From NCBI RefSeq assembly GCF_010672525.1, contig NZ_JAAHGH010000005.1, forward strand, positions 208,672-248,571: a DNA stretch of 39,900 bases, read 5' to 3'. Shown in pieces: positions 7,635 to 39,900 of the stretch (positions are counted from its first letter, which is position 1; each line of letters starts with the position of its first letter). Below the pieces are notes generated by a model. It was not told the DNA's origin and searched no databases. It was given only the letters and a program-made list of their open reading frames with translations. This DNA comes from Okeania sp. SIO2B3. Lineage in GTDB: Bacteria; Cyanobacteriota; Cyanobacteriia; Cyanobacteriales; Microcoleaceae. The position numbers were made by a program, and so were the translations under genes.

Positions 7635-8330
7635 ATGGTAAACAACAACCAATTACTCAACCTACCATCAAGTGACGAATTACCTGATTCAGACGACAAA
7701 CCCGTAGATCACGAAATACAAATCCTAATTCCTAACCTGCTAATGTTAATTTTAAATCAGTTATGGGGCGATCGCTATGATTGGTTTTTTGGCGTAAATA
7801 TGGGAATTTTCCACACCACTGGGTCAAGTCCTAGAGTTGCTATAGTTCCTGATGCTTTGCTCAGTCTGGGGGTTCCACGACTCAAAAATAATAAATTGCG
7901 ATCCTCCTATGTTCTTTGGGAGGAAAATTATGTTGTTCCGATATTGGTATTGGAAATTGTTTCTAAAACTTATGGGGGTGAATACGATGAAAAAATGATT
8001 GATTACGCTCAGTTGGGGGTCTTGTATTATGTTATCTATAACCCAGATTATTCCAAGCGAGACCAACATGAGCGTTTTGAGGTGTATCGTTTGGTAGATG
8101 GAGCATACCAACGTTTAGAAGGAAATCCCGTGTGGATGCCAGAAATTGGTCTGGGGATAGGAACTGAAGTTGGTAACCATTACCGTTGCGAACAAGAGTG
8201 GTTGTATTGGTATGACTCTGAAGGGAATAGGTTTATGACTCCAGAAGAGGAAGCACTTCAGCAACGACAACGAGCTGAACAACTTGAACAAATGTTGCGT
8301 TCCCTTGGTGTCGATCCAGAACAGTTGTAG
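7635..8330 (+). CDS. Uma2-family (DUF820) PD-(D/E)XK nuclease-like protein
   Basis: 231 aa from the preferred ATG at 7635; an in-frame ATG at 7581 would add 18 residues with no family similarity. The Uma2 core is present: PDALLSLGVPR with the first catalytic Asp, then VPILVLEIVSKTYGGEYDEK with the second acidic residue, and the YAQLGVLYYVIYNP strand. The C-terminus has the usual Glu/Gln-rich coiled coil (EEEALQQRQRAEQLEQML) ending in LGVDPEQL. The family has a restriction-endonuclease fold and is hugely expanded in cyanobacteria; its biological role is not settled. The gene is the larger, coiled-coil-bearing subtype and appears intact, unlike the Uma2 copy at 22508. Confidence 0.85.
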   Translation: MVNNNQLLNLPSSDELPDSDDKPVDHEIQILIPNLLMLILNQLWGDRYDWFFGVNMGIFHTTGSSPRVAIVPDALLSLGVPRLKNNKLRSSYVLWEENYVVPILVLEIVSKTYGGEYDEKMIDYAQLGVLYYVIYNPDYSKRDQHERFEVYRLVDGAYQRLEGNPVWMPEIGLGIGTEVGNHYRCEQEWLYWYDSEGNRFMTPEEEALQQRQRAEQLEQMLRSLGVDPEQL

Positions 8331-8338
8331 CTATATAT

Positions 8339-8365
8339 GTAGGGGCGAATGGCATTCGCCCTCAT
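8339..8365. repeat. Dispersed hairpin GTAGGGGCGAATG/CATTCGCCC
   Basis: Near-perfect palindrome directly after the Uma2 stop, same family as 34221-34247. Its position could let it act as a transcript-end hairpin, but no T-tract follows. Confidence 0.7.
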
Positions 8366-8468
8366 TGGATCTGGAAATACCGAATTTTCTTTTTTTATTC
8401 CCTTGAAAGGGGATGTTTGGGACTTAATTTTCTGGCCAAACAAAATAAAATTTTATAGAATATAATTG

Positions 8469-9608
8469 CTAATTTTTTCCCAATTTCAACCTTTCTTTTT
8501 CTGACAAATTTTCCTCTAAAACACTAATATTTTCCACAGGAATATTAACTTTAATTTTCTCACCTATAGCATATTGATTCAGATGAAAAGGATTAATATT
8601 TTGTCTACGGATAACTATCTTAGTTTTGTCAGTTAAACGCACTACATAACGAGTGTCTGTACCAATATAAACAATATTTTCTATTATCCCTGAAAAATCA
8701 GATTTTTCTGTAGAAGTTGATGGGTAAATTTCTATTTTTTCCGGTCTGACAACTAAGGTAATAATTGTATCTATTGGCAGATGATGAACTGCGGATATTA
8801 ATAATGGTAAATTTCCATCTATTAACACTAAACTTTTATCCTCTTGATGTGCAGTTATTCGCCCTGTTAAAAAGTTACTTTCCCCAATAAATTCAGCCAC
8901 AAAACGAGTTTTTGGTTGTTCATAAATTTCTACCGGAGTTCCCACTTGTAAAACTTCTCCTTGGTACATAACTGCTATCCGGTCAGACATAGTTAAAGCT
9001 TCTTCTTGGTCGTGAGTAACATATATAAAAGTAATACCTAACCTTTGCTGCATTTGTTTTAATTCCAACTGCATTTCTTTGCGTAATTTCAAGTCTAAAG
9101 CACCTAAAGGTTCATCAAATAATAATACTGCTGGTTGTTTAATTAATGCTCTTGCTAAGGCGACTCTTTGTTGTTGCCCACCAGATAATTGTCGGGGATA
9201 ACGTTTTTCCATATCTGTTAATTTTACTTGAGCTAAAGTATCAGTTACCCGACGATTTATTTCTGGGCGTGAAAGATTTTCCATTTCTAATCCAAAGGCA
9301 ATATTTTCTGCCACTGTGAGATGGGGAAATAAAGCATAATTCTGAAAAACTGTATTGACTGGGCGATGAAATGGCGGACTATTTCCTATTAGTTGACCTT
9401 GAATATAAATTTCTCCGGATGTGGGCATTTCAAAACCAGCTATCATTCTTAATGTGGTTGTTTTGCCACACCCAGAAGGACCTAATATGGAAAAGAATTC
9501 CGATTTTTTTATTTGCAGATTTATATTATTTACAGCAATAAATTTTTTTTGATTTTGACTTTTGAATACTTTGGATATGTTAATGAGTTCGACGGTCTGA
9601 GATAGCAT
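8469..9608 (-). CDS. potA: Spermidine/putrescine ABC transporter ATPase PotA
   Basis: 379 aa, full length. Nucleotide-binding domain: Walker A GPSGCGKT (43-50), Q-loop Gln89, signature LSGGQQQ (~141-147), Walker B VLLFDEP with the catalytic Glu166, and H-loop in YVTHDQEEA. The C-terminal ~130 residues are the TOBE regulatory domain (FIGESNFLTG, VVRPEKIEI). It powers import of polyamines through PotB/PotC with PotD as binding protein, on the cytoplasmic face of the membrane. In most bacteria potA leads the potABCD operon; here it lies at the far 3' end of the same-strand cluster, more than 2 kb beyond potD and separated by a dead patatin gene and repeats, so it is unlikely to share a transcript with them. 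A CysA- or Fe-type specificity is conceivable from the ATPase alone; the neighbours argue for polyamines. Confidence 0.88.
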   Translation of the reverse strand: MLSQTVELINISKVFKSQNQKKFIAVNNINLQIKKSEFFSILGPSGCGKTTTLRMIAGFEMPTSGEIYIQGQLIGNSPPFHRPVNTVFQNYALFPHLTVAENIAFGLEMENLSRPEINRRVTDTLAQVKLTDMEKRYPRQLSGGQQQRVALARALIKQPAVLLFDEPLGALDLKLRKEMQLELKQMQQRLGITFIYVTHDQEEALTMSDRIAVMYQGEVLQVGTPVEIYEQPKTRFVAEFIGESNFLTGRITAHQEDKSLVLIDGNLPLLISAVHHLPIDTIITLVVRPEKIEIYPSTSTEKSDFSGIIENIVYIGTDTRYVVRLTDKTKIVIRRQNINPFHLNQYAIGEKIKVNIPVENISVLEENLSEKERLKLGKN

Positions 9609-10085
9609 ATTTTGGCGTTGGTGAATTAGTGTATGATATTAATCTTAATTATTGAGGAGTCAACCCACCCCTAACCCCTCCGGTGGAGGGGAAGTCAGGA
9701 GTCAGGAGTCAACCCACCCCTAGCCCCTCCGGTGGAGGGGAAGAAAGAAGAATAAAGAGGAATATAAAAAGAAAGTTTTTTGTTCGCGCTCTTATCCAGA
9801 TATGATATCATACCTCTTTTCACCAACGCCCATATTTTTATGATTGACCCTTGAAATATAGAAGGAAGTACCCCTATTTTTTCAGCAAATAAATGCAAAT
9901 TAATATTTTCATAAAGTCCGGTATTTTTAAAGCATTTCAAATGCTAATGTATGACTTTTTTTTTGTTCGAGCTGCCTGTATAAGTTAGTTTTATCTATGC
10001 CAAATATCTACAGATGTATCATTTACTAATTAAGATGAATAAAACGGGCGATCGCTTCTTTAACTAAGAGATAATTTATTTGATT
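9609..10085. other. Gene-free spacer with two copies of a GC-rich repeat core
   Basis: 9663-9743 holds two tandem copies of the ACCCACCCCTAACCCCTCC core with its short palindrome CCTCCGGTGGAGG, linked by GTCAGGAGTCAGGAGT heptamers. This is the same core found inside R1 elements, but without R1 ends. The rest is AT-rich, with a HIP1 site near 10048. I see no gene. Confidence 0.6.
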
Positions 10086-11120
10086 TTATAAGTCTAAATA
10101 AGCAACTTTACCTTGCTCAATAAATGCTTCTGTAACTCTGATTATTTGATTAATCTGAGGTTCTCTAGCATCATCTATTGCTTCACTTACTTTTTCATTT
10201 ATATAAGAGTTAATTACTTTTTTATCATTTGTTCCTTGCTGAAAAATATTATTTAATTCAAACTATAAACGTAAGTAACCTTCAGGATTCTTTGTAGACA
10301 TAATTTGTTCTGCTACAAGGTTATTAGCTGAAGACTGAGAATTCATCAATATATTAATTAGTTTGATTGCCCATTCAGCTAGTCCCCATTGTACTATTTG
10401 CTTATAACTATATGGCTGGCTAGTTTCACCTGTGCCAATAGAAATTATTGAAATATCTTCTAGTTTATGACCTAGTTTAATTGCATAGCTTATTGCTGCT
10501 AATGTGGGATTATTTGCTGCTATTCCTCCATCTATATGTGGTAGACTCAAGTCTCCATTTTTTAATTCATAAGCTGGAAAATAAGTAGGAGCTGATGAAG
10601 AACTAGCACAAATTTCCCACAGAGGGAGATTGTCATACCAAATGGTTTGTTTAGGTATTTATGGATGATAATTTACAAAAATAGTCGGAGATTCCAAAAA
10701 CATATTGTAAGACACAATTAATAAGTTTATTTCACTAATTTATTGAAGTATAATTGCCGTTCTATCTTGTCGTAAAAGGTATTTTTTCAAGACTTTAATT
10801 AAGCCTTCACTGGAAAACTTAGGAGCAGAAATTCCATATTTCAAAATTAAGGGTAATCTTTTGGGCGACAAGCGACTTTGGTATGGAAAAATATTGATTC
10901 CTTCTTCCTGATATAGCTTGAGAATATTAGTGCTTTCTGTTCCTGTAGCAATTAGCGCTGCAATAATTGAGCCAGTGGAAGTACCAGCTATTAAGTCAAA
11001 GTATTCATGTAAAGACTTACCTTTTTGTTCTTTAATTTTTTTTTCAATTTCTATCAGAATTCGTGCTGCAATTACTCCACGAATTCCACCGCCATCTAAA
11101 CTAAGAATTTTGAAAGTCAT
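10086..11120 (-). pseudogene. Patatin-like phospholipase interrupted by three in-frame stops
   Basis: One continuous reading frame of 344 codons runs from ATG at 11120 to TAA at 10086, interrupted at codon 127 (TAA, 10740-10742), codon 154 (TAA, 10659-10661) and codon 286 (TAG, 10263-10265). There is no frameshift. Patatin motifs are all present: oxyanion loop DGGGIRG near residue 10, the nucleophile elbow GTSTGS near residue 48, ASSSAPTYFPAYELKNG, and the catalytic Asp in IDGGIAANNP. Intact members are lipid acyl hydrolases; some act as phospholipase effectors in CBASS defence, but no cyclase or Cap gene is nearby. The stops look like point mutations in an otherwise well-kept gene, so decay is recent. 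The gene lies between potD and potA. Confidence 0.88.
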
Positions 11121-33686: not shown

Positions 33687-34437
33687 CTGAAAAAACCATT
33701 ACGAAACACTTATTTTATTAGTATAACGTATAGTAGGCAACAGGCAACAGGCAACAGGGAATAGGGAATAGGGAATAGGGAATAGAAGACAAATTTAGTA
33801 AGATAATTAATAAAGCTTTTATCGTCAACTAAAAGCAATAGCTGAAGTTCGCAGTTCCGACCATAGGAGGCTAGCTGATGGCTGACGGCTGTTTGCGCAG
33901 CATTCCGCAGGAAATGCTTACATTAATAGTGACATTTATCTATATTTTTAATATTGGGTTTAAGACCCCTAAACTTATTTCCAAAAATTAGTAGTCCGTC
34001 TTTATAGCAGACATGAAACCCCCTTGACATTTCCCTTTTTTTCAAAATTTACAACATTTACAACTGATAATTTAAATAACCCCTTCTTCCTTCTTTCTTA
34101 TACCAATTCATTTTAAATATGTCACAAATAGTTTTGCTCCTTTAAATGTTAAATAACTTCCGTAAATTACTGTAGCATCAAAGTTGTTTTGAGCTGATAA
34201 AATCTTAATGCATGACTTTTGTAGGGGCGAATGGCATTCGCCCCTACTTTTGACTTCTGTGAAACGGTATTCCTTCTTCCTTCTTCCTTCTTCAATAATT
34301 TTTGAAAAATTTGCATAAAAATCCTTTCTAGTGCAGATATATATATGGGGACAAAGATTAGGTCTAAGCCAAAATAGTTAGAACTTTGATAAGCTCAACT
34401 CATAACCTTCAACTGTTGTGATAGGAGAGCGATCGCT
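33687..34437. other. Spacer with STRRs, an R6 element and a gene leader
   Basis: CAACAGG then GAATAGG heptamers (33735-33785); a reverse copy of the TTTGCGCAGCATTCCGCAGG repeat (33889-33918); R6 at 34101-34269; CTTCCTT heptamers (~34271-34295). The leader of the sigma-like gene (34300-34437) contains AGGAG at 34423-34427, followed by a HIP1 site and the GTG start. Confidence 0.65.
34101..34269. mobile_element. R6 element with a nested palindrome
   Basis: Ends TACCAATTCA / TGAAACGGTA, with flanks TTA and TTC (imperfect). It contains a near-perfect 27-bp palindrome GTAGGGGCGAATG-G-CATTCGCCCCTAC (34221-34247), which is absent from the otherwise similar partial copy starting at 23671, so it is a separate insertion. 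Confidence 0.72.
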
Positions 34438-35112
34438 GTGGAGGACCAATTACAAAATCTAATTACCCAAATAAAGCAATATCAAAATCCGAGTCCAGCA
34501 CGCCAGAAAGCTATTAATCGTCTATTGATATTAATTCAACAACTCCCTGGACTATATAGTTCGTCCCACCAGGATTATCTGGAGGCTTTTAATCGGACAT
34601 TAGAATGGGTCTGCAAAAATATTCAAAATTTTGAATCTCGGCCTCCTTCTTGGGAAAGAAGCTTTGTTGTCTGGATTAATGGTTATCTGAAATGGCGTAT
34701 CCAAGACTTATATACCCCAGATAACAGATATGAAAGTTTGGATAAACCTATTAGTGATGAAGGAGAAAAACTAACAACTTTAGGAGAAATTTTACCAGCT
34801 AATAGTCTAAGTTTACTAGAACAGAAAATTGCTGAATTGCAAAAAGCAAAACGTCAAAGAAAAGGTGAATATGTGAGGCAATATATTGAGAAAGACCCAG
34901 AAGAAAAGCTCAGTTCATCTCATCCTAAAAAACATCCTGAATGTAATTGTCAAGTATTAGCTATTCAGTTAAATTTTACAGAACCACCAAAGAAAATATC
35001 TGATATTTGCAAAGAAATAAATATTAGTAACCAAACTGTTTATTCCCACTGGAAGCGCAGATGTATTCCATTATTAAGAGAAATCGCTAATCAATTTGGA
35101 GAAGAATTATGA
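34438..35112 (+). CDS. Sigma-70-like / HTH regulatory protein
   Basis: 224 aa with a GTG start; AGGAG lies 10 nt upstream and a HIP1 octamer fills the gap. Residues ~18-100 (RQKAINRLLILIQQLPGLYS, then YLEAFNRTLEWVCKNIQNFE, and WERSFVVWINGYLKWRIQDLY) resemble sigma region 2 with its helix that contacts core RNA polymerase and the -10 element. The last ~60 residues (ISDICKEINISNQTVYSHWKRR) are a region-4-like helix-turn-helix. It is shorter and more divergent than group 1-3 sigma factors. Its stop overlaps the DUF1822 start (ATGA), so the two are translationally coupled. It may be an alternative sigma factor or a DNA-binding regulator derived from one. Confidence 0.7.
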   Translation: MEDQLQNLITQIKQYQNPSPARQKAINRLLILIQQLPGLYSSSHQDYLEAFNRTLEWVCKNIQNFESRPPSWERSFVVWINGYLKWRIQDLYTPDNRYESLDKPISDEGEKLTTLGEILPANSLSLLEQKIAELQKAKRQRKGEYVRQYIEKDPEEKLSSSHPKKHPECNCQVLAIQLNFTEPPKKISDICKEINISNQTVYSHWKRRCIPLLREIANQFGEEL

Positions 35113-36050
35113 ATATGACTGTTTCACAAGCATTAAAAGTTTTTGTGACCGCAGAAGCTCATCGTTATGCAGAGCAATTTGCAGCAGAACAAGCAACTCC
35201 TGAAAAAGGAAAACAAGTTTATCTAAATACTCTTGCTGTTGTGGCAGTTCAAAGTTATTTAAAGTGTTTAGGTATTCAGACCGCGATTCATCAAGGTGAT
35301 TGTTGGCATTCTGGTTCAAGAGCAATATTTAATGTGGCTGATTTAGTTTTACCAAATATTGGCAAGGTGGAATGTCGTCCGGTATTTCCTGGTGAAAAAG
35401 AATTGTTTTTGGCTCCAGAAGTTATTGATAACCGCATCGGTTATATAGCGGTTCAATTTGGGGAAGATTTAAACCAAGTACAAATATTAGGATTTGTTTC
35501 TGCGAGAAATATTGATGGGTTTCAAGATTCTATTCCCCTCGCACAAATAGAATCTTTGGATGCCTTAATTGACGAAATTGATTGGTGTAAAAAATGGGTT
35601 AATTTACGTCGGTGGTTTGAAGGTTTTTTTCCGGCAGAATGGCAAAGTTTACAGTTACTGTCTACATCTACATCTACAAGAAGTTTAAGAGTTTCAAGGG
35701 ATAGTATTTCTCAATCTCCAACGGATGATTTAAGTATTAGTTGTGGGAAAATTATTAATTGGGGTAGTGGAGTAAATGAAAAATCTACAGAATTAGCGGT
35801 AAAATTGACGGATAATTTTGAGGAGGAAATAGATATTTGTGTGCGACTTTCTACTACGAATAAAATTCCATATTTACCTGCTGGTTTACGAGTACAAATA
35901 TTGGATGAATTTGGTAATTCTTGTATGGAAGCTGAAGCTAGGGAAGCGGATGATTGGATACAATTAGAATTTGGTTGTAAACCTCAAGAACAATTTACTG
36001 TAGAAATGAGTTTAAATGAGCAAATAATTAGGGAAAATTTTGTAGTTTAA
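35109..36050 (+). CDS. DUF1822 family protein
   Basis: 313 aa. The N-terminal half is the DUF1822 signature: AHRYAEQFAAEQATPEKGKQ, VYLNTLAVVAVQSYLKCLGI, then VGKVECRPV-type segment (GKVECRPVFPGEKELFLAPE), RIGYIAVQF and a conserved tryptophan-rich LRRWFEGFFPAEWQSL. The C-terminal ~100 residues form a beta-rich domain (ICVRLSTTNKIPYLPAGLRV, LDEFGNSCMEAEARE). The family is found in filamentous cyanobacteria, typically between a sigma-like gene and a CHAT gene, as here. Its function is unknown; a role as linker or anti-sigma-like partner is a guess. It overlaps the sigma-like gene by 4 bp. Confidence 0.85.
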   Translation: MNMTVSQALKVFVTAEAHRYAEQFAAEQATPEKGKQVYLNTLAVVAVQSYLKCLGIQTAIHQGDCWHSGSRAIFNVADLVLPNIGKVECRPVFPGEKELFLAPEVIDNRIGYIAVQFGEDLNQVQILGFVSARNIDGFQDSIPLAQIESLDALIDEIDWCKKWVNLRRWFEGFFPAEWQSLQLLSTSTSTRSLRVSRDSISQSPTDDLSISCGKIINWGSGVNEKSTELAVKLTDNFEEEIDICVRLSTTNKIPYLPAGLRVQILDEFGNSCMEAEAREADDWIQLEFGCKPQEQFTVEMSLNEQIIRENFVV

Positions 36051-36191
36051 GAGTAAGTATTTCCTGGGTCATGCTGCGCAAATAGCTGTTAGCTGTCAGC
36101 TCTTATGATAAGATTTTAATTAATATAGACTTTAAAGCAAGCTTTGATAGTAGAATTTAATTCTGATTCAATTAGTAAAGCTTTTATCTAA

Positions 36192-36384
36192 TACCAATTT
36201 CATAAAATATTGCAAAGCGTGAGGACACAGGGAACAGGGAACACCTGAACTGTGACCAGTGAAAGAAAAACATAAATATTAAAGAGGAAAAAAGGTGGCA
36301 ATTTTATAATTTATCGAATTTATATTTTTTTCTTTTAGGAATAAATCACAAATTAAGATGTAACTGCCTTTTTTGAATTTGGTA
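36192..36384. mobile_element. R5 element, copy 2
   Basis: 193 bp; ends TACCAATTTCA / TGAATTTGGTA; target duplication TAA (36189-36191, 36385-36387). Confidence 0.85.
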
Positions 36385-36720
36385 TAAAACTAAAAAAAAA
36401 GTAATAGCTGATGGCTGATAGCTGACGGCTGAATACTTAAATTTTCAGATGTAACTGCCTTTTTTGAATTTGGTATAAAACTAAAAAAAAAGTAATAGCT
36501 GATGGCTGATAGCTGACGGCTGAATACTTAAATTTTCAGATGTAACTGCCTTTTTTGAATTTGGTATAAAACTAAAAAAAAAGTAATAGCTGATGGCTGA
36601 ATGCTGACGGCTGAATGCTTAAATTTTCAGATGTAACTGCCTTTTTTGAATTTGGTATAAAACTAAAAAAAAAGTAATAGCTGATGGCTGAATGCTGACG
36701 GCTGAATGCTTACATTTAAG
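36357..36720 (+). repeat. Four tandem 91-bp units derived from the R5 right end
   Basis: Units start at 36357, 36448, 36539 and 36630, exactly 91 bp apart. Each contains the R5 right end (CTGCCTTTTTTGAATTTGGT) followed by an A9 run and TAGCTGATGGCTGA-type direct repeats. The units are almost identical; units 3 and 4 share ATGGCTGAATGC where 1 and 2 have ATGGCTGATAGC. Confidence 0.92.
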
Positions 36721-36736
36721 ATTATCGCAGATAAAT

Positions 36737-39310
36737 ATGGAAGCTATTAAAATTATTAAGATTAAACTTATAGATAGTGGTGAAAATGGGTTTCATGTGA
36801 TTTTAAATTCAATAGGTGCTAATTTTGAGCCTATTGATGGTTTTTTACCATGTCTACCTGCTGAATTAGAAAGTTCTTTTAATCAATGGCAGTCAGCTTA
36901 TTCTCAGTTAGAAGATGTGAGAAAAGTAGCAACTCGTATTAGTCCACAATCAGTAGTTAATTATTCTAGTTATGAAGAAAAAGAGCAAGTAAAAATAACT
37001 CTTAATCAATGGTTGGATGGTGGCGATATTAGTTGGCAACCTGTACGGGATGAATTAATTTCTGTGTTAAGTTCTCTAGGAAGTTATGATTCAGAAATTC
37101 GCTTATTTTTGGATATTCAAAATCCTAATTTATGTCGCATCCCTTGGCAAGAATGGAATTTATTTCAGTCTCGTTTTCCGCAAACAGAAATTGCTATCCG
37201 AGTTAGAGGTAAAGGAAAGTTTAGACGGCCTCGTAAATCCTCAAAAGTAAGAATTATTGTCATAGTTGGTAAGAGTGATGGTATTAATACACAATTGGAT
37301 TTAGAAGTAATTCAAAAGTTAAAAGAAAAGGGTGCAGAAGTAAGATTTTTAAATCAACCAACACAGGAGATTTTATCTGATACTTTGCGGGAGGAACCTG
37401 GTTATCATATATTGATTTTTGCCGGGCATAGTTGTAGTAAAGAAGATGGTTCAATTGGTTGGATATATTTGAACGAGCGGGATAAATTAAGTATTAAAGA
37501 GTTTAAAAATTCTTTGAGATATGCAATAGATAATGGGTTGCAGTTAGCAATATTTAATTCTTGTGATGGTTTGGGTTTAGCAAATCAGTTGGCGAAGCTT
37601 GGTTTATCACGAATTATTGTCATGCGAGAACCTGTTCCTGACCTGGTGGCAGTTAAATTTTTAGAGTACTTTTTTGCAGAATTTGCAAATAATAAATCTC
37701 TATTTAAATCTATGAGAATAGCTCGAGGAAGATTAGAACATTTTGAGTCTGAATATCCAGGGGCGATGTGGTTACCTACTCTTTGTATTCAAGAAACAGC
37801 TTTGTCTCATCCTTTGAGTTGGCAGCAGTTAATTTATCCCAATTTATGGCAGAAAGTTATCAGTAAATCTAAGCTATCTTTAGGATTAACAGCAGGAATT
37901 TTATTGATAATTTTGGCGATAAATTTAGTTAAAAATAAATTCACTGAAACTAAAACGACCGGGATACAACCAGAAATTTTACAAAATATTAGTCAGGGGG
38001 AAAAATTGTTAATTTCTTCCGAGAAAAATCCGGCAAAAGAAGAAGGAATTGAACAATTTTATAATGGTAACTTTGCTCAGGCGATCGCTCAATTTCGCCA
38101 GTCTCTCCAAGTCAAGAAAAATGACCCGGAAACTTTAATTTATTTGAATAATGCAATTGCTCAACAAAAATCTGCTACAAATATTGGGAAAAAGATAGAA
38201 ATAGCAGTTAGTGTTCCTATTAGTCAGGAGTCAGATATTTCCCAGGAAATTTTGCGAGGAATTGCTCAAGCTCAAAGCGAATTTAACTGTGGTTTACCGG
38301 AAATTTCTCTGGCGATTAAAAATCCAGAAAATCAACTAAATTGCCCTGGTAGTTTCAATGGTAAATTTTTAAAAGTTACTATTGCTGATGATGAATATCT
38401 GCCAGAAACTGCAGAAAAAATTGCTCAAGCTTTAGTAGCAAAGGCAGAAATTATTGCCGTTATTGGTCATTATTCTAGTGATATGACTTTACAAGCAGGA
38501 GAGATTTATAACAAAGCAGAATTAGTAGTAATTTCTCCTACCAGCACTTCTATTCTTTTGAAAAATTTCAGTAAATTTGTGTTGAGAGTTGCACCAAATG
38601 ACAGTCTAGCAGCTCAAACTCTATTCAATTATTTAGAGCGACAAAATTGGGCAGATAAAAAAATAGCAGTTGCCTATATACCTGGTAATAGTTATAGTCA
38701 GTCTTTAGCTAAAGAACTTAATAAATTACTGCCAGAAAAATTCGTATATAAGTGCAATATTTTGTCCGGGAATTTTAGTGCCAGTGACTGTGTAGAAGAA
38801 GCACAAAATCAAGGGGCAGAAATAATGTTTTTAGTCCCGGCCACAGACAGAACTTTGAGTAATGTCATAGGTATAATTAATAATGCTAAAGGATTGAAAT
38901 TATTGGGTGGAGATTCTGTTTATAATCCCAGGGTATTAAAAGATGCTGGTAAACAAGCAGACCGAGGAAATTTAACCCTTGCTATTCCTTGGCATCGTCA
39001 CCCTAACTCCCAATTTAGTCAAACAGCTCAAAAGTTTTGGAATGCGGAAATTAATTGGCGTACTGCTAAATCTTATGATGCGACTAAAACTATTATTAAA
39101 GCTGTAGATGAAATGATGGGGAATTATTCTCGTAAACAGTTACAAAGAATCTTATCTAATCCCAATTTTTACCTAGAAGGAGTAACTGGAAAAATTAGAT
39201 TTAGGGAGTCAGGCGATCGGCAGTTTCTTGAGAAGGATAAACCACTGTTAGTTCAAGTAAAATCTAATGCTAAATCTGGAAAATATGAATTTGTAATTCT
39301 GGGGCAATGA
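36737..39310 (+). CDS. Membrane CHAT protease fused to TPR and ABC-type ligand-binding domain
   Basis: 857 aa from the ATG at 36737 (MEAIKIIKIKLIDSG); the frame extends back to 36692 but those codons belong to the tandem repeat. Order of parts: a beta-rich N-terminal region (1-160); a CHAT caspase-like domain with catalytic His231 in FAGHSC and Cys276 in FNSCDGLG; a transmembrane helix at ~378-398 (LSLGLTAGILLIILAINLVK); a TPR-like segment (~425-470, FYNGNFAQAIAQFRQSL); and from ~485 a type-1 periplasmic-binding domain of the amino-acid receptor class (IEIAVSVPIS, VIGHYSSDMT, VVISPTSTS, VAYIPGNSYSQSLAKEL). With one TM helix the protease should face the cytoplasm and the ligand domain the periplasm, making a receptor protease. 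Third gene after the sigma-like and DUF1822 genes. The substrate is unknown. Confidence 0.85.
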   Translation: MEAIKIIKIKLIDSGENGFHVILNSIGANFEPIDGFLPCLPAELESSFNQWQSAYSQLEDVRKVATRISPQSVVNYSSYEEKEQVKITLNQWLDGGDISWQPVRDELISVLSSLGSYDSEIRLFLDIQNPNLCRIPWQEWNLFQSRFPQTEIAIRVRGKGKFRRPRKSSKVRIIVIVGKSDGINTQLDLEVIQKLKEKGAEVRFLNQPTQEILSDTLREEPGYHILIFAGHSCSKEDGSIGWIYLNERDKLSIKEFKNSLRYAIDNGLQLAIFNSCDGLGLANQLAKLGLSRIIVMREPVPDLVAVKFLEYFFAEFANNKSLFKSMRIARGRLEHFESEYPGAMWLPTLCIQETALSHPLSWQQLIYPNLWQKVISKSKLSLGLTAGILLIILAINLVKNKFTETKTTGIQPEILQNISQGEKLLISSEKNPAKEEGIEQFYNGNFAQAIAQFRQSLQVKKNDPETLIYLNNAIAQQKSATNIGKKIEIAVSVPISQESDISQEILRGIAQAQSEFNCGLPEISLAIKNPENQLNCPGSFNGKFLKVTIADDEYLPETAEKIAQALVAKAEIIAVIGHYSSDMTLQAGEIYNKAELVVISPTSTSILLKNFSKFVLRVAPNDSLAAQTLFNYLERQNWADKKIAVAYIPGNSYSQSLAKELNKLLPEKFVYKCNILSGNFSASDCVEEAQNQGAEIMFLVPATDRTLSNVIGIINNAKGLKLLGGDSVYNPRVLKDAGKQADRGNLTLAIPWHRHPNSQFSQTAQKFWNAEINWRTAKSYDATKTIIKAVDEMMGNYSRKQLQRILSNPNFYLEGVTGKIRFRESGDRQFLEKDKPLLVQVKSNAKSGKYEFVILGQ

Positions 39311-39900
39311 ATTAAAATAGTAATCTATTTACTTAGGATAAAATGAGTGTATCTTGTATATTTCATATCAGTTATTAGTACCTATGCAATCAGGAGACTT
39401 GACCTGGGCGAATATTCTCTTTTTTTTATCCCCTTAACAGGGGAGCCACATACCCACAATTTCTCGGTAAAAATACTTTTTTCCTATTCCCTGTTCCCTA
39501 TTCCCTCCATACCTAAAGCGGAAATTAATTGGCGTACTGCTAAATCTTATGATGCGACTAAAACTATTATTAAAGCTGTAGATGAAATGATGGGGAATTA
39601 TTCTCGTAAACAGTTACAAAGAATCTTATCTAATCCCAATTTTTACCTAGAAGGAGTAACTGGAAAAATTAGATTTAGGGAGTCAGGCGATCGGCAGTTT
39701 CTTGAGAAGGATAAACCACTGTTAGTTCAAGTAAAATCTAATGCTAAATCTGGAAAATATGAATTTGTAATTCTGGGGCAATGAATTAAAATAGTAATCT
39801 ATTTACTTAGGATAAAATGAGTGTATCTTGTATATTTCATATCAGTTATTAGTACCTATGCAATCAGGAGACTTGACCTGGGCGAATATTCTCTTTTTTT
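39044..39900 (+). repeat. 474-bp tandem duplication covering the 3' end of the CHAT gene
   Basis: The unit beginning GCGGAAATTAATTGGCG at 39044 repeats at 39518 (offset 474) with no difference that I can find up to the window end at 39900. It holds the last 88 codons, the stop, and ~200 bp of downstream DNA including heptamer-like TTCCCTA runs near the junction (~39480-39506). More copies may follow outside the window. Confidence 0.93.
39518..39784 (+). pseudogene. Duplicated C-terminal fragment of the CHAT/ligand-binding protein
   Basis: It encodes the same last 88 residues (AEINWRTAKSYDATK to KYEFVILGQ) as the full gene. An open frame continues upstream to an ATG at 39347, but those ~57 codons are repeat DNA without protein character, so no functional product is expected. 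The fragment covers only the end of the ligand-binding domain. Confidence 0.85.

Follow-up and report, generated by a model that had tools for sequence, protein, structure and literature searches.

DUF1822 as a possible two-part adaptor between sigma factor-like proteins and EACC2–CHAT receptor proteases at a locus of Okeania sp. SIO2B3 and among its relatives

A window of 39,900 nucleotides from the 10.0 Mb genome of Okeania sp. SIO2B3 (contig NZ_JAAHGH010000005.1, positions 208,672 to 248,571) carries three genes on the + strand which encode, in order, a sigma factor-like protein, a protein of the DUF1822 family and a receptor protease with an EACC2-like domain and a CHAT domain (Table 1). 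The 3′ end of the sigma-like gene is joined to the 5′ end of the DUF1822 gene by an ATGA overlap, as an earlier note made from the sequence alone had observed. The EACC2–CHAT gene follows after a gap of 686 bp, and tight coupling at this locus is thus limited to the sigma-like and DUF1822 genes. The earlier note held that no mechanism had been described for this gene set. That was mistaken, as the set has been described, and a mechanism proposed for it, by Kaur et al. (eLife 2021; PMC8195603). What is added here is evidence for DUF1822 as a swappable joint between the sigma factor and the receptor protease. Computation shows the domain layout, the conservation of the catalytic dyad and the pairing of the genes, together with a predicted two-domain structure for DUF1822 and distinct evolutionary paths for the two halves of this protein.

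Table 1. Features of the locus, numbered from the first nucleotide of the window
Feature	Position	Strand	Basis or remarks
Sigma factor-like protein, short class, 224 amino acids	34438..35112	+	GTG start; AlphaFold model, weak helix-turn-helix (Pfam)
DUF1822 protein, 313 amino acids	35109..36050	+	PF08852, E 5.7e-68; model with predicted local distance difference test score (pLDDT) 86.6
DUF1822 N-domain, residues 9-185, alpha+beta, putatively sigma-facing	35133..35663	+	Model; co-variation with sigma
DUF1822 linker, residues 186-207, predicted disordered, candidate cleavage region	35664..35729	+	pLDDT <50 at 187-198 and 201-205
DUF1822 C-domain, residues 208-313, all-beta, putatively EACC2–CHAT-facing	35730..36047	+	Model; co-variation with EACC2
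EACC2–CHAT receptor protease, 857 amino acids	36737..39310	+	CHAT and Peripla_BP_6 matches
EACC2-like N-terminal domain, residues 5-157	36749..37207	+	Hidden Markov model built here; no Pfam match
CHAT protease domain, residues 171-350	37247..37786	+	PF12770, E 9.7e-13, 48.6 bits against a cut-off of 24
Catalytic dyad, His231 and Cys276	37427-37429 and 37562-37564	+	Numbering from the 36737 start
Single predicted transmembrane segment, residues 380-398	37874..37930	+	Hydropathy 2.45
Weak tetratricopeptide repeat (TPR)-like segment, residues 437-470	38045..38146	+	TPR_11, E 0.07, under the curated cut-off
Periplasmic binding domain, amino-acid receptor type, residues 534-830	38336..39226	+	PF13458 (Peripla_BP_6), E 1.2e-18
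Conserved upstream block, candidate promoter of the sigma–DUF1822 pair	34314..34343	+	Aligned in 9 upstream regions (window and 8 relatives)
Four 91-bp tandem repeats between the DUF1822 and receptor-protease genes	36353..36716	.	Repeat units 96-98% alike to the reference copy

Kaur et al. describe an EACC2–caspase module which stays constant whilst its C-termini vary. Most of those of its neighbourhoods that are independent of TRADD-N adjoin a gene for an extracytoplasmic function (ECF) sigma factor and a gene for DUF1822 (PMC8195603). The gene set is the same as that at the window locus, and the architecture is likewise one of N-terminal alpha+beta and caspase-fold domains followed by CHASE2 or other small-molecule-binding C-termini. 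The name EACC2 is used here on grounds of this architecture and context, and not of a sequence comparison with the authors' alignment; the term 'Peripla' does not occur in the main text of the paper. The paper deals with apoptosis and immunity in bacteria of multicellular habit, and the mechanism proposed is activation by autopeptidase action followed by a sigma-mediated transcriptional output. In the relevant parts of that text autopeptidase activation is favoured and DUF1822, regarded as a TPR protein, is given no role. Elsewhere in the portions of the literature covered, DUF1822 appears in a mutation table only, and no adaptor role for it was found in the literature searched, which mostly leaves out subscription journals and preprints.

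The receptor protease has the features of such a module. A hidden Markov model seeded on its residues 1-165 found 92 open reading frames (ORFs), 83 of which also have a CHAT match. C-termini were scanned in the 72 proteins with at least 40 amino acids after CHAT, the remaining 11 of the 83 ending at or soon after CHAT or being cut. The scan gave CHASE2 (29), Peripla_BP_6 (17), nSTAND1 (6), PBP_like_2 (5), WD40 (3) and others, so the highly variable C-terminus of EACC2–caspase proteins is found here too. Meanwhile the His and Cys of the dyad, which the earlier note had called intact and whose numbering is exact with the start at 36737, are present throughout the EACC2–CHAT proteins, in all 140 distinct CHAT domains with a length of 150 amino acids or more, which argues for a working protease. 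The CHAT domain is also common to the window protein and HetF, a putative CHAT protease of heterocyst-forming cyanobacteria (PMC8406250). HetF, by contrast, is a divisome component, the relevant part of that paper mentions no sigma–DUF1822 pair, and its NCBIfam model scores the window CHAT region at 29.8 bits (E 1.9e-7), far under the family cut-off of 1200 bits.

The receptor has one predicted membrane helix, as had been claimed: with a hydropathy threshold of 1.6, residues 380-398 form the sole segment above it, with the CHAT half before them and the ligand-binding half after. The charges flanking this segment (3 basic and no acidic residues on its N-terminal side, 3 basic and 2 acidic on its C-terminal side) suggest, if weakly, that the protease half lies inside. 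The amino-acid-receptor-type periplasmic domain is borne out by the Peripla_BP_6 match, and the domain also matches amino-acid ATP-binding cassette (ABC) transporter binding proteins and the ectodomains of metabotropic glutamate receptors in the PDB. Its Cys pair (both residues present in 8 of 14 aligned rows, both absent in 6) is compatible with an oxidising outside location, but reflects one insertion. A TPR-like segment, also claimed in the earlier note, is present, albeit as a match too weak to reach the curated cut-off.

It might be supposed that the protease is an effector which kills the cell, for instance against invaders, with the sigma factor merely regulating its production. Such a role would be in keeping with the treatment of EACC2 systems by Kaur et al. 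among those of apoptosis and immunity. PADLOC, on the other hand, gave no match for the three window proteins and, for a second protease of the locus only, a weak SAVED_CHAT match of 17.2 bits. Furthermore, the partner with the best conservation is sigma-like, and receptor types for small molecules (CHASE2, Peripla_BP_6 and PBP_like_2) make up the commonest C-termini, which suggests environmental sensing. Nothing found favours the cell-death-like response raised in the earlier note over transcription, and a killing role for the protease is very unlikely.

The sigma-like protein gives, by sequence, only weak helix-turn-helix matches in Pfam. Its AlphaFold model has a pLDDT of 83 and a predicted template modelling score of 0.44. 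The first 31 rows of a Foldseek search with this model are sigma factors or sigma-containing complexes, a few of which we take to be sigma from their entry names; 1or7 (E. coli sigma-E with RseA) is among them. The scores are weak, with a best E value of 0.0068, the first five at 0.0068-0.09, none below 0.001 and whole-model TM-scores of about 0.2-0.3; lower in the list a sigma-E region 2 structure is matched with a TM-score of 0.65 (by target length). The modelled fold of the short-class protein therefore supports, albeit weakly, the sigma-like identity which it had been given. Among the short-class proteins Pfam finds Sigma70_r4_2 in 4 of 65, region 3 in 1 of 65 and region 2 in none of the 65. 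At other loci a second, longer class of sigma-like protein (about 400-630 amino acids) takes the same place beside DUF1822. This long class is defined by mutual similarity and by sigma-70 region 4, which is present in 17 of 40 proteins scanned out of 45 listed; region 2 is present in 4 of the 40. Similarity clustering places 44 of 47 long upstream ORFs in one cluster, and the long-sigma profile was built from these 44, themselves among the ORFs counted. Between the sigma-2-like and sigma-4-like parts of the sigma-like protein lies a conserved Cys-x-Cys, after a His-Pro motif, both cysteines of which are at least 90% conserved in the alignment. The His-spaced form of the motif occurs in 50 of 122 distinct short sigmas, and a metal or redox site is possible.

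The DUF1822 protein of the window is 92-95% identical in alignment to its nearest Okeania relatives. Its model is one of two domains joined by a disordered linker, and not a TPR fold; it differs in this from the TPR protein of PMC8195603, the N-domain being predicted as alpha+beta and the C-domain as beta. A seemingly natural sigma–DUF1822 fusion (locus L128, an ORF of 1030 amino acids) proved to hold merely a 25-bit sigma remnant behind an NTPase-like stretch and was not used.

The earlier note had proposed a survey of co-occurrence across genomes. DUF1822 is present in 35 of 39 related genomes and has 10 matches in the genome of Okeania sp. SIO2B3 itself. A first set of 110 DUF1822 genes was made up of 100 loci chosen among the matches listed in the 39 relatives, together with the ten own-genome loci (L019 has no DUF1822 ORF and L103 has two). 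A second set, which overlaps the first, comprised the best 80 of 503 loci by similarity to the window DUF1822, with 81 ORFs. ORFs outside length limits, CHAT matches below 150 amino acids and near-identical operons were dropped before counting. The co-occurrence is strongly conserved, and its absence was the first of the refuting conditions named in the earlier note, whose idea thus survives this test. In the first set a sigma-like gene lies directly upstream on the same strand in 101 of 110 cases (54 short and 47 long; of the others, 8 lack one and 1 lies at a contig edge), and EACC2 lies within 2 kb downstream in 75 of 110, with CHAT complete or not (2 have CHAT only, 27 neither, 6 a contig edge). 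The corresponding counts in the second set are 79 of 81 for an upstream short sigma and 71 of 81 for a downstream EACC2 (6 none, 4 edge). DUF1822 is thus tied first to sigma and second to the protease. The company of an ECF-like sigma and DUF1822 by which EACC2–caspase neighbourhoods are recognised is found both in the window and in these counts.

The two domains of DUF1822 have evolved in different company. In a mirror-tree analysis, based on correlations of pairwise distances over 64 non-redundant operons, the partial correlations are 0.71 for sigma and DUF1822-N, 0.36 for DUF1822-C and EACC2, 0.66 for EACC2 and CHAT, and 0.11 for the two DUF1822 domains with each other; a rank version gives 0.61, 0.34, 0.64 and 0.07, respectively. 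A partial Mantel test of DUF1822-C and EACC2, given N, yields 0.58, a value reached in none of 999 permutations. Along DUF1822 in a sliding window, the correlation with sigma falls from about 0.8 to 0.33-0.42 whilst that with EACC2 rises from about 0.4 to 0.67, and the two curves cross over the last part of the N-domain and the linker. The loci L210 and L211 form a mosaic in which the sigma factor and the N-domain are 68% shared, as against 34% for the C-domain, 44% for EACC2 and 63% for CHAT. Tree likelihoods follow the same pattern. Placing the N-domain data on the sigma tree costs 160 log units, as against 824 on the C-domain tree. For the C-domain data the cost is 153 with the tree of EACC2+CHAT and 344 with that of the N-domain.

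The two sigma classes provide a second view of this division. N-domain identity is 20% between classes, as against 43% and 30% within them, and the nearest neighbour of an N-domain is of the same class in all 82 cases. For the C-domain the values are 31% between classes and 36% and 32% within, and for EACC2 29% between and 34% and 28% within; the mean identity of C-domain, EACC2 and CHAT between the classes is about that within the long class. Mapped onto the N-domain tree, the sigma class needs one change; the C-domain tree requires 9 and the EACC2+CHAT tree 10, where shuffled labels give a mean of about 18. With weakly supported nodes collapsed these counts become 2, 13 and 10, and without one doubtful long-class row they are again 1, 9 and 10. 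The DUF1822 N-domain follows sigma and the C-domain follows EACC2–CHAT, and this two-part evolution is new here, as is the predicted fold of two domains with a disordered linker.

Further evidence comes from DUF1822 proteins which have no detectable C-domain. Twenty loci matched at the N-terminal part only were fetched after the prediction on EACC2 absence had been set down. One of them (L245) has a C-domain, and it has EACC2 as well. The other 19 ORFs have sigma upstream in 18 cases, the remaining one being at an edge, and have EACC2 within 5 kb in 1 case, no EACC2 in 12 and an edge in 6, i.e. in 1 of the 13 with enough sequence. The single exception, L233, holds a further, separate piece of DUF1822 that does have a C-domain. 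Across all 131 DUF1822 ORFs, leaving out 12 at edges, EACC2 is no further than 5 kb away in 82 of 100 that have the C-domain and in 1 of 19 that lack it (Fisher p 1.6e-10, with shared descent ignored and the C-domain-less short-sigma class perhaps amounting to few lineages). The C-domain profile was trained on EACC2-linked operons, which brings some bias into these counts, and diverged C-domains (L051–L055) count as absent. Sigma is kept in 27 of the 28 DUF1822s without a detectable C-domain, the other being at an edge.

These results bear on the proposal of Kaur et al., drawn for this gene set from the example of EACC1 systems, that a stimulus sets off autopeptidase action. If a released EACC2–CHAT fragment then altered sigma (an extension made here), DUF1822 would be a scaffold and not a substrate. 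The invariance of the dyad, while the receptor C-terminal part varies widely, would sit well with such autoproteolysis. Alone, however, it leaves unexplained why the C-domain of DUF1822 follows EACC2 and is associated with a nearby EACC2–CHAT gene, and we consider it unlikely. A different role for the protease half would be that of an anchor: DUF1822 would keep sigma at the membrane on EACC2–CHAT, and a ligand-driven change of shape would free sigma uncut. The co-evolution of the DUF1822 halves needs contact only, as such a tether would provide, but the presence of both catalytic residues in every one of the 140 CHAT domains would be unexpected for a mere tether, which makes this idea improbable.

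The closest tested parallel is the CRISPR-associated Craspase (CASP) system, made up of Cas7-11, the TPR–CHAT protease Csx29, Csx30 and CASP-sigma, in which Csx29 cleaves Csx30 (PMC10028731). According to the parts of that work concerned with Csx30, its N-domain binds the ECF-like CASP-sigma, the full-length protein inhibits sigma and the C-terminal part binds the CHAT domain. Csx30 is cut at residues 427-429, just past a linker at 377-406, and how cutting frees sigma is unclear to the authors too. Craspase and the locus described here both have a CHAT protease, an ECF-like sigma and a two-part protein between them. They differ in that Craspase is activated in the cytoplasm by target RNA (PMC10028731), whereas the protease here is predicted to be a transmembrane receptor. 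By analogy, the two-part evolution of DUF1822 and the association of its C-domain with EACC2 suggest that DUF1822 is most likely an anti-sigma-like adaptor, as Csx30 is. DUF1822 may work like Csx30, but the searches by sequence and by fold given below found no homology, and DUF1822 is not filed as a Csx30 homologue.

The possibility should be considered that the sigma-like protein itself is the substrate, with DUF1822 presenting it to a protease which would destroy or activate it. A delivery adaptor of this kind would fit the two-part evolution; the partial correlation of sigma with EACC2, the other parts held fixed, is nevertheless only 0.07, and the nearest tested precedent cuts Csx30, the sigma inhibitor. 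Cleavage of sigma is an improbable account.

The reading preferred here, to which we give as a whole a probability of about one half, is that the locus encodes a transmembrane receptor protease which controls a sigma factor through DUF1822 as a bipartite adaptor. The periplasmic binding domain would detect a small molecule, probably amino-acid-like, and the signal would cross via the one membrane helix to the cytoplasmic EACC2–CHAT protease. The N-domain of DUF1822 would hold the sigma factor and its C-domain would dock on EACC2–CHAT. Once activated, the protease would cut DUF1822, most simply within the disordered linker, and so free the sigma factor for transcription of its targets. In a known pathway from signal through protease to sigma release, it is the anti-sigma factor that crosses the membrane, and the protease which acts first does so from the periplasmic side. 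At the present locus, by contrast, the sensor is fused to the protease, which is predicted on the inner side. The interpretation in the earlier note, of an extracytoplasmic ligand switching a cytoplasmic protease, is upheld in part: co-occurrence, the sigma-like fold, the dyad and the membrane segment stand, and the undescribed mechanism does not. Its suggestion that the protease acts on the sigma-like or the DUF1822 protein gains weight because DUF1822 evolves in two parts.

A broader and more tentative proposal, which we hold to be somewhat short of an even chance, is that DUF1822 serves as an exchangeable joint throughout a large class of cyanobacterial pathways from receptor protease to sigma factor. 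Its head would be specific to a sigma factor and its protease-docking tail common to all; some ten recombinations at the linker would have connected different sigma factors to different membrane receptors, and cutting at the joint would be the switch, in a transmembrane, small-molecule-driven counterpart of the CRISPR protease/Csx30/sigma arrangement. If this is true, many cyanobacteria would run parallel signalling lines, each with its own sensor, using proteolysis of an adaptor instead of phosphorylation. The DUF1822 family would gain a role and the rewiring of sensors to sigma factors an explanation, whilst the system would offer a natural design for switches from ligand to transcription. 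The prediction made by Kaur et al. in 2021 would become directly testable.

A number of observations weigh against the adaptor reading. The separation of the two domains is not clean: with C held fixed, DUF1822-N still correlates with EACC2 at 0.22 (a level reached in 0 of 999 permutations), and with N held fixed DUF1822-C does so with sigma at 0.10 (reached in 26 of 999). An approximately unbiased test rejects all swapped trees, including the sigma tree for DUF1822-N, so that no two of the histories are identical. Some class signal remains, as 68 of 82 C-domains and 70 of 82 EACC2 domains have a nearest neighbour that shares their sigma class. In the long-sigma set alone (20 operons) the partial correlations reach 0.33 for DUF1822-C and sigma and 0.36 for DUF1822-N and CHAT. 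Eighteen DUF1822s with the C-domain have no EACC2 within 5 kb. As regards structure, DUF1822 has no match in the PDB by sequence up to E 10, and the best 50 of 856 Foldseek rows for its model hold no Csx30 entry; most of these rows are beta-sandwich proteins of a generic kind, and none has an E value below 0.001. That the proteins bind one another, that sigma is inhibited, and that DUF1822 is cut and where, are steps which we infer, as are the ligand and the target genes.

The linker offers no help with the site of cutting. An arginine motif in it, [FLVIMY]R[SGNTA], is enriched, occurring in 54 of 69 DUF1822s against a mean of 15.6 and a maximum of 28 in shuffled linkers. It was rejected as a cleavage site, as it is rarer in those long-class DUF1822s which have a neighbouring EACC2 gene: a broader form, in which A is also allowed before R, is present in 8 of 24 with EACC2 and in 18 of 21 without. 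The strict form is absent from the window DUF1822.

A further difficulty is that the order of the genes and domains, sigma, DUF-N, DUF-C, EACC2 and CHAT, is also the order of the correlations, so that part of the pattern could arise without any contact, through linkage and recombination within the gene for DUF1822. Taken to its limit, this would mean that breakpoints fall within the DUF1822 gene by chance and that DUF1822 has no adaptor function. The link between DUF1822-C and EACC2, though, spans a gene border (with a median gap of about 52-59 bp and up to about 1 kb) and yet exceeds the link across the linker, and DUF1822s without the C-domain are rarely near EACC2. Linkage as the whole explanation is improbable.

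The remaining observations concern the DNA around the three genes. A genome-wide search for the conserved upstream block, allowing up to 3 mismatches, gave the block itself as its single hit, and no regulon was found by this route. The four 91-bp repeats take up much of the stretch separating the DUF1822 gene from that of the receptor protease. The frame of the receptor protease is listed from 36692, and its first 15 codons lie inside or just beyond the 91-bp repeat array. It is likely that 36692 is a spurious earlier start codon supplied by the repeats and that the true start is the next ATG, at 36737.

A 100-N scaffold gap begins directly after the end of the window, and the locus continues past it. 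Near-identical partial copies of the 3′ end of the receptor gene sit around this gap, at 39041-39340 and 39515-39814 in the window and at 8187-8456 and 8888-9157 in L011. A reading of these copies as receptor-tail cassettes was dropped, since the window copies flank the scaffold gap. Partial copies are found in L096, L100 and L110 too, and at least some are thus real duplications. Past the window, L011 encodes at 9301-10881 a Peripla_BP_6 protein without EACC2–CHAT, which has 77% DNA identity to the receptor over about 1200 bp and, as judged by eye, an N-terminal hydrophobic stretch; it is possibly a co-receptor or a decoy. At 11136-13307 of L011 there follows a second EACC2–CHAT protein, with PBP_like_2 as its sensor domain. 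It is 63% identical to that of the window over residues 4-364 and differs in the binding domain. One sigma–DUF1822 pair may therefore serve two sensors, and two ligands, at this locus. Two or three EACC2–CHAT genes lie within 10 kb downstream of 4 of the 110 DUF1822 genes.

Other proteins occur downstream of the sigma–DUF1822 pair at loci without a close EACC2. Nine such proteins comprise a dynamin-like GTPase, a chloride channel, a phosphate transporter, four pentapeptide-repeat proteins, one protein without a match and one C14 caspase–NTPase fusion. In L054 (2168-5965) a C14 caspase fused to nSTAND1 directly follows a long-class sigma–DUF1822 pair, in the usual place of EACC2–CHAT. Pentapeptide-repeat proteins of 704-774 amino acids stand at or near the receptor position after long-class pairs in L066, L076 and L078. 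Finally, in L073, L080, L089 and L119 a gene for a protein of 246-312 amino acids comes after EACC2–CHAT, together with a CHAT-containing protein of about 900-1000 amino acids encoded on the opposite strand.

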